From Candidatus Poseidoniaceae archaeon (GTDB lineage Archaea; Thermoplasmatota; Poseidoniia; Poseidoniales; Poseidoniaceae): a DNA stretch of 38,965 bases. The translations under genes and the position numbers were made by a program. The stretch covers positions 1 to 38,965 of the forward strand of contig JAPKCS010000020.1 in assembly GCA_028822845.1 (NCBI GenBank). The letters are read 5' to 3'. The notes below the pieces were generated by a model, which had not been told where the DNA came from, made no database searches, and saw only the letters and a list, made by a program, of their open reading frames with translations. The first letter of the stretch is position 1. Each line of letters opens with the position of its first letter. Positions 4,170-31,130 of the stretch are shown here, in pieces.

Positions 4170-4718
4170 TCATTCCTCTGAAGCGACAACGACGCGAACC
4201 GCTGTGAGGACACGTTGTTTGTACATGTATCCGCCTTCAAGCACATCAACGACATGACCAGGTTGGAATGCCTCGGAAGATGGAATGGTGGTGATCGCTT
4301 CCATCTTAGCGGGATCGAATTTCTGACCTTTCGCTTCAATAGCACTGACGCCATCTGCTTGAAGTTCATGCCACATTTTGTTCCGGGTCAAACGAAGCCC
4401 TTGGGCAACGGCGCTCTCATCATCATCGCCAACACTGACAAGGGCACGGTCGACGTCACCAAGAACAGTGAGCATGCGCCGAGCCAGACCCATGCCGCTG
4501 TACTGAATGAGGTCTGCCTTTTCTGCCATCAAGCGTTTCCGCACGTTTTGTATTTCAGCGTCCTTGTAAGCAATTTCTTTTTCAGCTGTTTCAGCTCGTG
4601 AAAGTGCAACCTCCAGAGGGTCCTGCACTTCGACTTCAACTTCCTCAGTCAAGTCCATGGTTTCCATGCCCTCTTCGATGACCGGAACTTCGTCGTCAAC
4701 AACTTCGTCTTCGCTCAT
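4170..4718 (-). CDS. grpE: GrpE, nucleotide exchange factor for DnaK (Hsp70)
   Basis: A 182-residue protein with an acidic disordered N-terminus (residues 1-35), a long coiled-coil helix (about 36-75), the GrpE helical segment around MLTVLGDVDRAL, and a C-terminal beta domain ending GHVVDVLEGGYMYKQRVLTAVRVVVA, which closely follows the family pattern. GrpE releases ADP from DnaK so the chaperone can cycle. dnaK and dnaJ are not in this window. Archaea that have this system are thought to have acquired it from bacteria. The gene follows an unknown gene at 4758 by 39 bases and precedes a small basic protein gene; all three may share a transcript. Confidence 0.92.
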   Translation of the reverse strand: MSEDEVVDDEVPVIEEGMETMDLTEEVEVEVQDPLEVALSRAETAEKEIAYKDAEIQNVRKRLMAEKADLIQYSGMGLARRMLTVLGDVDRALVSVGDDDESAVAQGLRLTRNKMWHELQADGVSAIEAKGQKFDPAKMEAITTIPSSEAFQPGHVVDVLEGGYMYKQRVLTAVRVVVASEE

Positions 4719-26650: not shown

Positions 26651-28603
26651 ATGGTCGAATTACCGCAGGGAGACGTCACGGAAATCCGCCGTGGCGACCG
26701 CGATGCCCTCCGGATTTTATCCACTGACATGACCAAATTATCCACCACTGGATACATCAGGACTGAGCGGAAGCCGAAAGAGGCCATGCCCAGAGTCGGA
26801 CATATTTTGTTCATTGAAGGGCACCCAACATTAGCCATTCACGAAAGCGAGGCTCTTCTGTTTGGACTCGAAGCCTTGTTGGAAATTGAGAACGATGCAC
26901 TCCCCCTCGAAACACTGCTCGCAGTCCATGAATTGCCCATGCCTGATGCACAGCGAGTCTCGACCCTCCATCCGAATGCCTTCTTGCATCTCGAAACGGT
27001 TGAACCCTCAACTGAAGATCGTGAACGATGGTGGTCAAACGTTCAACTCCGACCAGGAAGTTGGAGGAGAGAAGAACGGTTGCCGGAACTCGAAGTGACG
27101 GTTGAAGCACCTGAGGCAGTGCGTCAAAGAAGCCGAGCCTATCTGCAACGCCATGAGGGAATGGAACGAATGATTCGCCCCGGTGATGCGTTTTTACTCG
27201 ACGCCCACGACCCGTCGATGCTGTTCACCCTCGCAGGTCATCTAGCCAACCATGGCCGTCCAATCCTCGTCATCTCGCGCCATGATGTGGATTCGCTCAG
27301 CGTTGAACATCAGTTGCCAGTCGCTGCATGCCATTGGCTTTCAACTGGAGATCACCCCCGGGCGATCGAACCAACATTGGAAAGCGTGCGGACGAAAGTG
27401 GATGCATTCCTATGGGAAAACATGCGGGCTGTCGTCCTCATTGAAGGCATTGAGTACCTTGCAGGCTTGAACGGTGATGCCCGCACAATTGATTTCCTTC
27501 GAGACGTCGTGGACGGCGTCCGAATGGACGACCATGTGCTGTTGACGACTGCAGACATGAACGCCTTTGAACTGGAACCGCGCCATCGTTTGAACCGTTG
27601 CCTCTCTCAGCTTCAACCAAGTGAGATCGAACACTGGCTCACTGAACCAGAACTGATCCTCGACCATCCCCTGTGCGCCCCACCAACCGAAGAGGAACGC
27701 ACATGGATTGAACAGCAACTTCAACGAGCAGTGGAGCATTCACCAGCGCCATCCACGCCCACTTCAGAGGGCACATCAATGACAGGCGGTCATGAAATGG
27801 CAAGTGAAGAGGACCGTTTACAAGCCACAGAAGCCCTTGGTGAACATGTCCGAGCATGGACTGAAGAGGAACGCTCAGCACCACTTGAAGAAACGGTTGC
27901 AGCAGAACCCCCACGGGCCGTTCACGCTGAGCAAAATGTTGAACTCACCGAACCAGCCGAAACATTCGAACACGAAGTCATTGAAGTGGCAGAGATCACA
28001 GAGCAGGCGCACGAACCTCCACAACAAGCCCATGAGGAGCCTGAACTCGATGCTCCTGTCAAGCACCGAGGGCCACGCACTGCTCAACGCCTTCGCCGAA
28101 AGAAAAAGCGTCCGGAACAACAGGTTGCAAACCAGCACCGCATCCAGACTGCTGCTGCTGCTGCACACACCCCGGTCGCCACACCGGAATTCCCCAATCG
28201 AACCCCCGTGAACCGGCCAGCAGCGATCGCTTCATCCTTGGACTCCTATGCCGCGAGGCAGCAAACAGCAATGGACAAGACATTCCAACCAACCACTTCA
28301 GTCAAGGATTCACTCGGAGCCGCAGCTCAGCAATCCTCTGCTGGAAAGCACCATCATCTCCCATCGCTGGGGGCTGGTCCGCGACCAATTTCGGCCGTCA
28401 ACAACCGGCAACCAATCGGTGCAACAACGACATTGACACCGTTGTTAGCACGACCCGGGATCAATTCAGATGCAAAGCCAAAACACATGCCACGGGAAAT
28501 AGCATCCAAGGCTCAAGCACCGCCAGCAATGGAAGATAATTTGAGTTCGTGGGAACTTGAAGACCTCGAGCGTCTTCGGAAAGAACGGGAGGGGGCCAAG
28601 TGA
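26651..28603 (+). CDS. DUF835-domain protein coupled to a DnaA-like ATPase
   Basis: A 650-residue protein. Residues 1-140 form a small domain with GYIRTERK and GHILFIEGHPTLAIHESEA, similar in style to archaeal DUF2226/DUF4388-like modules (weak). Residues about 175-330 match DUF835: a strand with PILVISRHD, then VVLIEGIEYLAGLNG near residue 261 and VLLTTADMNAFELE. DUF835 occurs in archaeal signalling proteins and has no proven activity. From about 345 to 650 the chain is disordered, acidic then basic, rich in Pro, Gln and Ala, ending in a charged helix. The next gene starts at GTG 28600 inside this stop codon (GTGA), so the products are probably made together and may interact. Confidence 0.75.
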   Translation: MVELPQGDVTEIRRGDRDALRILSTDMTKLSTTGYIRTERKPKEAMPRVGHILFIEGHPTLAIHESEALLFGLEALLEIENDALPLETLLAVHELPMPDAQRVSTLHPNAFLHLETVEPSTEDRERWWSNVQLRPGSWRREERLPELEVTVEAPEAVRQRSRAYLQRHEGMERMIRPGDAFLLDAHDPSMLFTLAGHLANHGRPILVISRHDVDSLSVEHQLPVAACHWLSTGDHPRAIEPTLESVRTKVDAFLWENMRAVVLIEGIEYLAGLNGDARTIDFLRDVVDGVRMDDHVLLTTADMNAFELEPRHRLNRCLSQLQPSEIEHWLTEPELILDHPLCAPPTEEERTWIEQQLQRAVEHSPAPSTPTSEGTSMTGGHEMASEEDRLQATEALGEHVRAWTEEERSAPLEETVAAEPPRAVHAEQNVELTEPAETFEHEVIEVAEITEQAHEPPQQAHEEPELDAPVKHRGPRTAQRLRRKKKRPEQQVANQHRIQTAAAAAHTPVATPEFPNRTPVNRPAAIASSLDSYAARQQTAMDKTFQPTTSVKDSLGAAAQQSSAGKHHHLPSLGAGPRPISAVNNRQPIGATTTLTPLLARPGINSDAKPKHMPREIASKAQAPPAMEDNLSSWELEDLERLRKEREGAK

Positions 28604-30663
28604 GTTCACGAAAAGCAAATTTGGACCTCGCTATTGCTCAAGCAAAGCAAAGGTTGTCCGATCTAGGAGCCGCAGCAAAACTACCCGAGGAAGTCCAAGC
28701 AACCAAACAAAAGGGAATGCCACCCAAGTCACGTTTGAACCGTTTGCTCGGAAAACAATCCGTCCCTGACACACGAAGGGGGACGCTGCTCCAGCGCGTC
28801 GGTGTCGTTGAGCGGCCAACCTACGATTTGGTTGCCGATGCTGTTCTTGGAAAGGAAAGCAGAGTGCACCAACCTTCCCTCAACCTCCTCACAACAGATG
28901 GTTCGCTTGCATCCATCGTTTCAACCCGTTTGAAAAGCCTCCGGGAGCGTACAGCAGAGAGCATGGAAGAACGTAAAATGCCGCTCGACAAGGATGATTT
29001 CTTTGTTGGTATGGAAACCGATGGACGACCAGTTTGGGAAAGTGTCCTCGACCATCAGCGGGGCAGAACCATCCATGACCTTCCGGAATCGCTCGCTCAA
29101 CCTGCACCTGGCACGCTGTTTCACCACAGTGTGACCGCACCTGTTGATGCCCCTTGGCCGGTCAAACTTCGCCCTGAATCACGGTTGAGCTTCAAGCAGT
29201 GGTTCACCATCGAGGAAAACCTTCGAGCAACACAAGCAGCAGAGGCAGTTGTCGATTCTCCAGGCATGGCACTCAACCCACTCGTCCTTATTGGCCCATC
29301 AGAAAGCGGCCGTTCCCATTTAATTCACGCCATATCCCAAGGGGTCCTTCGCAGACAAGAAGGGGAAGTCTACCTCCTTGCTGCCAGCGACCTGCTCCAA
29401 TTTGAGCACCTACCTCAAGGCTGGCAGGAAGCGATGTCACAAGCACGCATGTTAGCGATTGATGACACCCACCTCATGGCAGATCACCCCGTTTCATCGG
29501 CCATGCTTGGAACCATGATTGACTATGCGCTGAACATTGGCGTCCATGTCGTCCTTACAACGAGCATCGACCCCGAACGATGGCCTGCTTCAAGGCTGTG
29601 GGAACTGGTTCGGAGCGCTGCAAAGGTCCGCCTCCACAAGCCGGCAGCAACCAGCATGGTCCTCTTCGCTCGACAACTTGCGCTCAAACGTAGCCTGATG
29701 CTCGATGACGGTCAACTCGCCAGCGTGGTCTTGCATCATGAAATTGGATGGCGAGCTACCAAAGCAAACTTGGACATGATCGCCCTCGCCCTTGAATCAG
29801 GACAAGAATTGCTCGATGGAGATGATGTCACCTCTGTTCTTTCGGGAGAACCGGTCCATTCCAACCAAGCCATGCCTCAAATCGAGCGAGAGAACGTCGC
29901 TGACATTGCTACAAAATTGATTTCAGAGGCAGTTGATGTCGTGTACAGCGACAACACGATTGGTGGTATTGAACTCCACTCACCATTGCCTGAAATCGGC
30001 GACGACACGTATGAGCCTCCTCAGTTCGATACCGAATCAATGGCTAAAAACGCTCAATCACGTCATGAGGCCTACATGAAGACAGCGCTTCATGACATCG
30101 ATTTGAAAGTTCCATCTGTGCTTGATTTGGATGAACGTGATGCCCACCTCGTCGCCCGTTCTGGAAGAATCGAAGAGCGAGACTACAGCACTGCTGCAGA
30201 TATCCTCACCGATTTGGATGAAACAATTGACCGGACACTTGGTTCCTTTGAGTCTGAACTCGCCACACGATCGATTCACTTGGAACAACTTGAGCAACGA
30301 ATGATGGACTTGGGCCAGCAAACCTCCGAAGCGACCATCGAGGAATTGATTCAAATCGCAGATGATCTCCGTCACCTCGAGGAAGAACTCGTTGAAATCG
30401 ACCCAGAACGTGGCCCACTTCCTCCTTTCGAAGAAGATGCCGTCGAGACCAAAAAACGAAGCGTTGGCCGGAGAAAAACACAATCGAACGACAATCCAGC
30501 CCCGTCAGCGCTCGACAGTTTCACACCTGAAGGTGAATGGGATGTTGATGCTGCAAACGTCGACATGCTTGACCTGCTTGAGAATGCGGAAAAGAGCCAA
30601 CGAAAAATCACCCTTTCAACCATTACCTCAGTTCAATCAACACCCGATGGTGAAGAGGAATGA
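28600..30663 (+). CDS. DnaA-like AAA+ protein with a degenerate Walker A
   Basis: A 687-residue protein. Residues 1-190 are basic and mostly disordered. About 195-430 align by eye with the AAA+ domain of bacterial DnaA: LSFKQWFTIEENLRATQAA (DnaA: TFDNFVxGxSN), NPLVLIGPSESGRSHLIHAI (DnaA: [20 protein letters not shown]), Walker B LAIDDTHL (Asp 288, 289), sensor-1-like VVLTTSIDPERW and SRLWELVRS at the arginine-finger place. The Walker A lysine is Arg 238, so ATP use may be weak or absent. No DnaA domain IV DNA-binding helix-turn-helix is seen; the C-terminus (about 480-687) is acidic with a coiled coil near 565-610. It overlaps both neighbours (GTGA at the start, ATGA at the end). This is not expected to be a replication initiator, as archaea use Orc1/Cdc6. 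Confidence 0.75.
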   Translation: MSSRKANLDLAIAQAKQRLSDLGAAAKLPEEVQATKQKGMPPKSRLNRLLGKQSVPDTRRGTLLQRVGVVERPTYDLVADAVLGKESRVHQPSLNLLTTDGSLASIVSTRLKSLRERTAESMEERKMPLDKDDFFVGMETDGRPVWESVLDHQRGRTIHDLPESLAQPAPGTLFHHSVTAPVDAPWPVKLRPESRLSFKQWFTIEENLRATQAAEAVVDSPGMALNPLVLIGPSESGRSHLIHAISQGVLRRQEGEVYLLAASDLLQFEHLPQGWQEAMSQARMLAIDDTHLMADHPVSSAMLGTMIDYALNIGVHVVLTTSIDPERWPASRLWELVRSAAKVRLHKPAATSMVLFARQLALKRSLMLDDGQLASVVLHHEIGWRATKANLDMIALALESGQELLDGDDVTSVLSGEPVHSNQAMPQIERENVADIATKLISEAVDVVYSDNTIGGIELHSPLPEIGDDTYEPPQFDTESMAKNAQSRHEAYMKTALHDIDLKVPSVLDLDERDAHLVARSGRIEERDYSTAADILTDLDETIDRTLGSFESELATRSIHLEQLEQRMMDLGQQTSEATIEELIQIADDLRHLEEELVEIDPERGPLPPFEEDAVETKKRSVGRRKTQSNDNPAPSALDSFTPEGEWDVDAANVDMLDLLENAEKSQRKITLSTITSVQSTPDGEEE

Positions 30664-31130
30664 AAGGCGGATGGTGGATGGGAGGCGTCCCGTTCAGTTG
30701 CCAGCCAAACTGTGGGAGGTGTTGTGATGAACCGGGCGGTATTGTTTACCTCTCAACCAGGGATGCAGAGCGCATCTCTGCTCATCATGAGATGGAAGTT
30801 GATGCATGGCTTGAACGCGATTGCCGTCAAACACTGGATGGACGTTATGTTCTCAAAAGTCGAGAAAGCGATGATGTCTGTATTTTCCTTGATGGCGAAA
30901 AGCGATGTTCAATCTACGAAGTGAGACCCCAGCAATGCGCTGCGTTCCCTTGGTGGTCTGAGAATTTGGCAACAGAGCGGGCTTGGAACGAAGTCAAGGA
31001 ATCATGCCCCGGGATCACGGCTGAAGATGCAATCGTTGTCGAAGGCGAAACCATCAGAATACATGTCTTCGCTGATCGTGAATCTTCGAAGGGTTTCCGT
31101 ACGTGGCCGCCAGAGAATCGGCGGAAATGA
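30660..31130 (+). CDS. YkgJ-type cysteine-cluster protein
   Basis: A 156-residue protein of the CxxxCxxCC (YkgJ) family, annotated as putative zinc- or iron-chelating. The N-terminal cluster is FSCQPNCGRCCDEPGG, then come Cys in DDVCIFLD, KRCSIYEVRPQQCAAFPWW and KESCPG, the usual spacing. The function of the family is unproven. Its start ATGA overlaps the stop of the DnaA-like gene, making a tight three-gene unit with DUF835. A metal- or cluster-binding partner for that system is possible, but the coupling may only reflect shared expression. Confidence 0.88.
   Translation: MKGGWWMGGVPFSCQPNCGRCCDEPGGIVYLSTRDAERISAHHEMEVDAWLERDCRQTLDGRYVLKSRESDDVCIFLDGEKRCSIYEVRPQQCAAFPWWSENLATERAWNEVKESCPGITAEDAIVVEGETIRIHVFADRESSKGFRTWPPENRRK

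Follow-up and report, generated by a model that had tools for sequence, protein, structure and literature searches.

The window analysed here is the whole stretch of 38,965 nucleotides of contig JAPKCS010000020.1 (positions 1 to 38,965, forward strand) in assembly GCA_028822845.1 of a Candidatus Poseidoniaceae archaeon of the phylum Thermoplasmatota. Gene B, the subject of this report, is located at 28600..30663 on the + strand and encodes a DnaA-like protein of 687 aa, with a GTG start codon and a stop at 30663. GTGA at 28600-28603 joins the start of B to the overlapping stop codon of the upstream gene A. Gene A (26651..28603, +) encodes the 650 aa partner of B, consisting of an N-terminal domain, a DUF835 domain and a long low-complexity tail. 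Judged from sequence and profile comparisons, B appears to belong, as a diverged archaeal protein, to the DnaA branch of AAA+ ATPases. The genome containing the window (1.92 Mb, 57 contigs) carries two Orc1/Cdc6 genes, scored at 426 and 201 bits, and the window also encodes a tRNA-guanine transglycosylase with a PUA domain, which is an archaeal arrangement. Both features bear out an earlier description of the genome as apparently archaeal.

The DnaA-type AAA+ domain of B extends over residues about 190-415 (29167..29844, +) and matches domain III of DnaA. Pfam PF00308 (Bac_DnaA) matches residues 195-326 with an E-value of 6.7e-8 and 33.3 bits (cut-off 23), and B is the sole match to this profile in the window genome. 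A family profile, built from the 30 members of alignment A3 with L058 left out, was searched against all PDB chains. The top five matches are bacterial DnaA sequences with E-values of 4.9e-26 to 7.9e-17, the best of which (8btg) spans DnaA residues 97-322, i.e. domain III. The next matches are DnaC (1.3e-4), followed by Hda and IstB (2.4e-3); Orc1/Cdc6 is absent among the PDB matches listed (60 of 69). In direct controls the scores with the family profile were 72-113 bits among 12 bacterial DnaA sequences, 57-120 bits among 25 other archaeal proteins and 18 bits with E. coli Hda, and the two Orc1/Cdc6 proteins of the window genome scored below zero (-0.3 and -1.2 bits). An unplanned positive control was provided by the true bacterial dnaA on a contaminant contig of the metagenome-assembled genome (MAG) G113, which the family profile also detected. 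This contig of a Poseidoniales MAG (C23; L058/L202) looks bacterial, with a full-length dnaA beside open reading frames (ORFs) named by eye as dnaN-, recF- and yidC-like.

The predicted model of B has a mean predicted local distance difference test score (pLDDT) of 69.5 overall, with 81-95 in blocks of residues 191-420. When residues 190-415 of the model were searched with Foldseek, the first 16 matches were 11 DnaA and 5 Hda chains; the match to DnaA 8bv3 has an E-value of 2.0e-13 and a template modelling score of 0.82 by target. The homology of B to domain III of DnaA is regarded as virtually certain. The preliminary description of this DNA, made from the letters alone, had placed a DnaA-like AAA+ core at residues 195-430. 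The core is confirmed by the family profile, by Foldseek and by the occurrence of B in 34/34 same-genus relatives, and its limits are corrected as given above. A clearly better placement in Orc1/Cdc6 or another ATPase clade, which would have spoken against the description, was not obtained. The family profile favours DnaA, over Hda, DnaC and IstB by more than 20 orders of magnitude, but with B alone as query DnaA and Hda are tied.

The lack of domain IV stated in the preliminary description is also borne out. No DnaA C-terminal domain (domain IV) was found in B by the Pfam scan, and the match of the DnaA profile TIGR00362 to B stops at profile position 245 of 437. Strong matches of this profile to other archaeal DnaA-core proteins end at positions 291-368 of 437, and in the contaminant bacterial DnaA positions 1-436 are matched. 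Pfam likewise detected no DnaA C-terminal domain in the nine archaeal DnaA-core proteins scanned.

The motifs of the AAA+ domain, all on the + strand, are partly eroded. In the Walker A motif of B (GPSESGRS, residues 232-239, 29293..29316) the usual Lys is replaced by Arg; the 30 aligned family members have Lys (20), Arg (8) or Cys (2) at this position. Walker B (LAIDD, residues 285-289, 29452..29466) is intact. In the Box VII region (residues 330-344, 29587..29631) the arginine finger of DnaA (R264 in B. subtilis) is replaced by Leu, and in sensor 2 (WR, residues 384-385, 29749..29754) the Arg is kept. The initiator-specific motif (ISM) of B comprises 24 residues rather than 30 and the column of I190 is missing. 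According to passages of PMC10721633, R264, I190 and the ISM of DnaA serve oligomerisation and single-stranded DNA (ssDNA) binding.

Motif states were counted over a 56-row alignment, in which the Hda row was not counted and from which the DnaA of G413 was left out. The Walker A Lys is present in 12/12 bacterial, 24/24 other archaeal and 14/19 Poseidoniales rows, the arginine finger in 12/12, 20/24 and 0/19, and the sensor 2 Arg in 12/12, 18/24 and 10/19, respectively. The ISM is 30 residues long in bacteria, 29-31 in 22 of the 24 other archaeal rows and 21-27 in Poseidoniales. The ratio of nonsynonymous to synonymous substitution rates (dN/dS) between B and its relative L074 is 0.06 for the whole gene and 0.02 over the AAA+ domain; this is the value of one pair, the other three pairs being unusable because their synonymous sites are too saturated. 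In Poseidoniales B the arginine finger is gone and the ISM shortened, yet the gene remains under purifying selection.

In the trees, from which the truncated ARC_G271c and the DnaA of G413 were left out, the Poseidoniales B proteins (19 rows) form one clade with 100/99 support on a long branch. The bacterial and the other archaeal rows are intermixed with weak support, and a single clade of all archaeal rows was not rejected by the approximately unbiased test (p-AU 0.22, with 7 long-branched of the 56 rows left out). The branch of Hda is very long, and the tree gives Hda no place. Because of the long branches the placement of Poseidoniales B is unsure, and with the deeper order weakly supported, homology rather than a dated transfer is claimed.

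Better preserved relatives of B occur elsewhere in the phylum. PF00308 was searched in 292 genomes of Thermoplasmatota; since the profile also passes its cut-off in three archaeal controls, only matches of at least 79 bits were counted. Such matches, with up to 239 bits, were found outside Poseidoniales in 25 of the 292 genomes, belonging to 12 families; the highest score comes from G271, a bin of 5.0 Mb in which contamination reaches 7%. These closer DnaA-core proteins outside Poseidoniales are a new finding of this analysis. Most of the aligned ones (24 rows) retain Walker A, the ISM, the arginine finger and sensor 2. Three kinds of protein can be distinguished. The first are fusions, 485-977 aa long in the best loci, in which the DnaA core is followed by DUF835. 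Both domains were confirmed by Pfam in all seven fusions scanned; among the nine fusions in alignment A4, an N-terminal domain is present in seven and a zinc-ribbon-like cysteine pair in six. With the profile of A4, at least 12 of the 292 genomes show a single frame that encodes both DnaA and DUF835. This profile matches 201 genomes at all, many of them via DUF835 only among the matches listed. G271 is a thirteenth case, with DnaA and DUF835 in neighbouring genes of the same frame and a stop codon between them. Proteins of the second kind are short (about 390-450 aa) and consist of a coiled coil and the DnaA core. By eye, the short proteins of L192, L194, L166, L169, L171 and L173 combine a MGxxxW-like start with the coiled coil, reminiscent of membrane-targeting ends. 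The third kind are giants of 1250-1407 aa (L191, L195, L198), in which coiled-coil repeats accompany the DnaA core; zinc-ribbon-like cysteines are found in L191 and L195. L160 and L161 resemble these two in being very long coiled-coil DnaA-core proteins with such cysteines near the C-terminus.

Gene A carries the domains that complete the comparison with the fusions. Its DUF835 domain (residues 197-316, 27239..27598, +) is matched by PF05763 with an E-value of 5.7e-13 and 49.3 bits, above the gathering score of 33.1 bits, and its model adopts a RecA/KaiC/FlaH-like fold; in Foldseek FlaH is the best match (2.8e-5), followed by RecA and KaiC. In the portions of PMC5847659 considered here, DUF835 is listed as an inactivated KaiC that occurs in REC-DUF835 proteins. 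The N-terminal domain of A (residues 1-110, 26651..26980, +) is homologous to that of the fusions; none of the 50 structural matches listed, all of them RecA/KaiC-like, is specific to it. With hhalign, the cut-out N-terminal domains of A and the fusions matched with a probability of 99.2 and an E-value of 5.4e-20, and the two DUF835 domains with 3.1e-22; B aligned with the DnaA core of the fusions at 4.1e-27. An uncut profile-profile comparison of alignments A5 and A4 gave DUF835 only, and the N-terminal match required the domain to be cut out. A thus matches the fusion at both ends and B in the middle. With both domains in neighbouring genes, the A-B pair belongs to the group defined here as DnaA-DUF835 proteins of Thermoplasmatota.

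Within Poseidoniales, B was found in 85 of 145 genomes (71/72 in family f1 and 14/73 in the others); 86 had been reported before the contaminant G113 was removed, which was also dropped from the family counts. Gene A is present in 84 of the 145. G050 and G123 are left out of this count, as only a second DUF835 paralogue was matched in them. Many Poseidoniales genomes encode, apart from gene A, another DUF835 protein, which is about 300 aa long (e.g. G000:C51:756-1205). Both A and B are present in 83 genomes, B alone in two (G136 and G123, both with B fragments), A alone in one (G071) and neither in 59. Of 29 family loci, 26 have A directly 5' of B; of the remaining three, L054 and L055 have a diverged A upstream and L057 ends within B. 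The B locus is syntenic in tens of genomes, including the complete chromosome G059. The partnership of A and B is considered likely. The fusions in at least 12 genomes, together with this co-occurrence, support the suggestion of the preliminary description that B may be a repurposed module of Hda/DnaA type working with the DUF835 protein beside it.

Gene C (30660..31130, +), the start of which overlaps the stop of B in ATGA, encodes a CxxCxxCC zinc/iron-chelating domain protein of 156 aa (PF03692, E-value 4.6e-12). It adjoins B in 26 of the 29 family loci, on the same strand in 19 and on the opposite strand in 7, and was not found in 3. As it is co-directional in only 19/29 loci, gene C is not supported as a fixed third member. 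Of the conserved trio envisaged earlier, the A-B pair therefore stands and gene C as a constant member does not.

Orc1/Cdc6 scored above the cut-off in all 18 genomes tested that carry DnaA-core proteins, so the DnaA-like protein is not its replacement there. On the complete chromosome G059 the two orc1 genes are at 1.83 and 0.70 Mb and B is at 1.52 Mb. Three genomes have a fusion or short DnaA gene on an orc1 contig, with distances of about 46 kb in G396, about 28 kb in G232 and about 156 kb in G211; this linkage is too loose as an argument. A link to the origin by position was rejected. The neighbours of the DnaA-core genes were read in 17 loci, including L197, which is a weak match only. 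In four of these (L179-L182, from families f38, f30, f42 and f37) gyrB-gyrA lie close to the fusion gene, separated from it by thiC only in three loci and by thiC and one ORF in L181; gyrBA were identified by Pfam in L179 and by BLAST clusters in L180-L182. Intein splicing and Hint domains were also matched in the gyrA of G336 (L179:11776-14001). Directly 3' of their fusion genes, L187 and L188 have a Rad51-family gene. Bacterial dnaA is also found near gyrB; the contaminant bacterial contig shows the dnaA-dnaN-recF order only.

Taken together, these data are best explained by a diverged DnaA-type protein B that would form a complex with A and act as an ATP-binding regulator beside Orc1/Cdc6, an explanation held with slightly better than even confidence. 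As A and B carry the same three domains as the fusion, we infer that they act as one complex, a rearranged two-gene form of the DnaA-DUF835 fusion. B would bind ATP, perhaps with slow turnover, and serve as a conformational switch and docking platform, and it would not polymerise on ssDNA. B may be described as a constrained, repurposed ATP-binding scaffold or regulator. That it is not the replication initiator is very likely. More tentatively, the complex might contribute to chromosome maintenance (replication control, supercoiling or repair) alongside Orc1/Cdc6, as a regulator rather than an origin-binding initiator; a DNA-related role of the DnaA-like protein is considered less likely than not. 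A broader scenario is speculative: Thermoplasmatota might have acquired the bacterial DnaA motor and joined it to a KaiC-like domain. Lacking the origin-reading domain, it would still form an ATP-driven polymer on ssDNA, a second and hitherto undescribed chromosome-control machine beside Orc1/Cdc6 and in places near gyrase and recombinase genes, from which Poseidoniales would later have made a non-polymerising two-gene switch.

Several observations weigh against this explanation. With NCBIfam, B alone gives a tie between DnaA (1.3e-10, 40.9 bits) and Hda (1.8e-10, 40.8 bits), far under the equivalog cut-offs of 343.9 and 194.8 bits, respectively. The PF00308 cut-off is also exceeded in M. jannaschii, H. 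volcanii and M. acetivorans, and a PF00308 match by itself was rejected as proof of DnaA for that reason. Since the fusion has its DnaA core in the middle, preceded by the N-terminal domain and followed by DUF835, the two-gene form must be a rearrangement and not a plain split. Both genes are missing from the 59 Poseidoniales genomes mentioned, none of them in f1, and the co-occurrence of A and B, which is uncorrected for shared ancestry, may stem from few gain or loss events. B itself shows no direct indication of DNA binding. In G059 at least about 306 kb separate B from each orc1 gene, and in the window genome gyrB is on a different contig from B. The scanned neighbours of B in the window are dominated by genes of metabolic character. 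The gyrase neighbourhood occurs in only 4/17 loci, and one of its members, ThiC, is unconnected with DNA; the gyrase and Rad51 neighbours hint at DNA but may represent inherited gene order.

The most serious alternative, although a less likely one, is a signalling or positioning scaffold without a DNA role, in which the DnaA core would be an ATP-driven conformational switch only. It is consistent with the incomplete ISM and missing arginine finger of Poseidoniales B, with the largely metabolic window neighbours, and with DUF835 being KaiC-like and known from archaeal two-component proteins, as far as the REC-DUF835 entries in PMC5847659 go. It fits less well with the ssDNA- and oligomer-contact motifs of DnaA kept by most of the less diverged archaeal relatives, and with the gyrBA or Rad51-family genes near 6 of the 17 loci.

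Less probable still is an Hda-like brake: B would regulate Orc1/Cdc6 or couple to PCNA, in the way that Hda links the inactivation of DnaA to the sliding clamp. Among the structural matches Hda ranks directly behind DnaA, its profile (TIGR03420) covers a longer stretch of B than the DnaA profile does at an equal score, and E. coli Hda shares with B a DnaA-type AAA+ domain of similar fold, a shortened ISM, Arg in place of the Walker A Lys and the lack of domain IV. The family profile nevertheless matches Hda much more weakly than DnaA, by the E-value difference given above and by 53 or more bits, and the very long Hda branch is unplaced in the tree. B is also about three times longer than Hda, is paired with a DUF835 protein and lacks the arginine finger, which Hda retains; the Hda arginine finger is required for DnaA-ATP hydrolysis.

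An auxiliary or alternative initiator or helicase loader acting like DnaA is very improbable. The other Thermoplasmatota do keep Walker A (24/24), the arginine finger (20/24), sensor 2 (18/24) and a full-length ISM (22/24), but domain IV was not found, Orc1/Cdc6 is present in 18/18 carriers tested, the relevant motifs are gone from Poseidoniales B and 59/145 Poseidoniales genomes lack both genes. Bacterial contamination, chance AAA+ resemblance or a decaying gene, as might be suspected from the dnaA contig of G113 found by the same profile, the three unrelated archaeal controls passing PF00308, the contaminated 5.0 Mb bin G271 with the highest score and the eroded motifs of window B, is considered refuted for the window gene, though not for each member of the wider group, by the synteny across tens of genomes, a complete chromosome among them, the DnaA genes on orc1 contigs in G396, G232 and G211, the in-frame fusions to DUF835, the E-value of 4.9e-26 to DnaA and the dN/dS of 0.06.

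Compared with known systems, B shares with bacterial DnaA the N-terminal box F..f...N..A..AA..V...PG...NPL.I.G, the DD of Walker B, the lid and, in the window copy, the sensor 2 Arg. It differs in the lack of domain IV, in the other flanking domains, with no domain I found, in the loss of the arginine finger and full ISM in Poseidoniales, and in its archaeal host with Orc1/Cdc6. DnaC and IstB, helicase-loader-like ATPases of the same wider AAA+ clade as DnaA, are weak matches only, more than 20 orders of magnitude below DnaA with the family profile. Archaeal Orc1/Cdc6 is an initiator-type AAA+ protein of the same genome, yet it gains no score with this profile. Gene A resembles other DUF835 proteins in carrying PF05763 and a FlaH/RecA/KaiC-like fold; the architectures published in the consulted portions of PMC5847659 are REC- and PAS-linked, none with DnaA. 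The 'DnaA-like' SSV ATPase of archaeal viruses (arCOG07960), as described in PMC4158269, resembles B in name and in being an AAA+ protein encoded in archaeal genomes, and is virus-associated. A 2025 paper on archaeal initiation describes, in the sections available, DnaA as the bacterial and Orc1/Cdc6 as the archaeal initiator (PMC11880632). No paper on archaeal DnaA-core proteins was found in the open-licence PMC literature, as judged mostly by titles and the starts of abstracts, and the word 'DnaA' is absent from the available text of an archaeal gyrase paper (PMC9348778). An archaeal phylum holds DnaA-core proteins beside Orc1/Cdc6, most of the aligned ones with the motifs for polymerisation and ssDNA binding. 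This allows a direct test of the function of the DnaA motor once the DNA-reading domain is gone, and raises the question of whether two initiator-type ATPases divide the work in one cell. The main interest lies in the better preserved relatives rather than in the eroded window copy of B.

Outside the AAA+ domain, B contains a helical, coiled-coil-like stretch at residues 526-600 (30175..30399, +), modelled as helices 526-577 and 580-600 and conserved in alignment A1. A short acidic tail, GEEE, ends 15 of the 16 genus-level rows of this alignment. A link of B to motility was rejected: archaellin (PF01917) is found in 92 of the 145 Poseidoniales genomes without following B, G043 and G057 (genus g7) having B without an archaellin match and the matched genomes of g4 and g20 archaellin without B. 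A PHROGs search gave no match at E 0.01 for A or B. The Poseidoniales locus is also present in G412 and G413 (L151 and L133), records with the titles Deltaproteobacteria and Phycisphaerae; the DnaA-like protein of G413 matches 5-426 of the 437 profile positions, and G413 may be a mixed bin. Among the genes scanned, other annotated neighbours in the window encode citrate synthase, a DUF309 protein, an aminotransferase and a PAP2 protein. A gene for the co-chaperone GrpE is located at 4173-4718 of the window (E-value 1.1e-32), in an archaeal genome.

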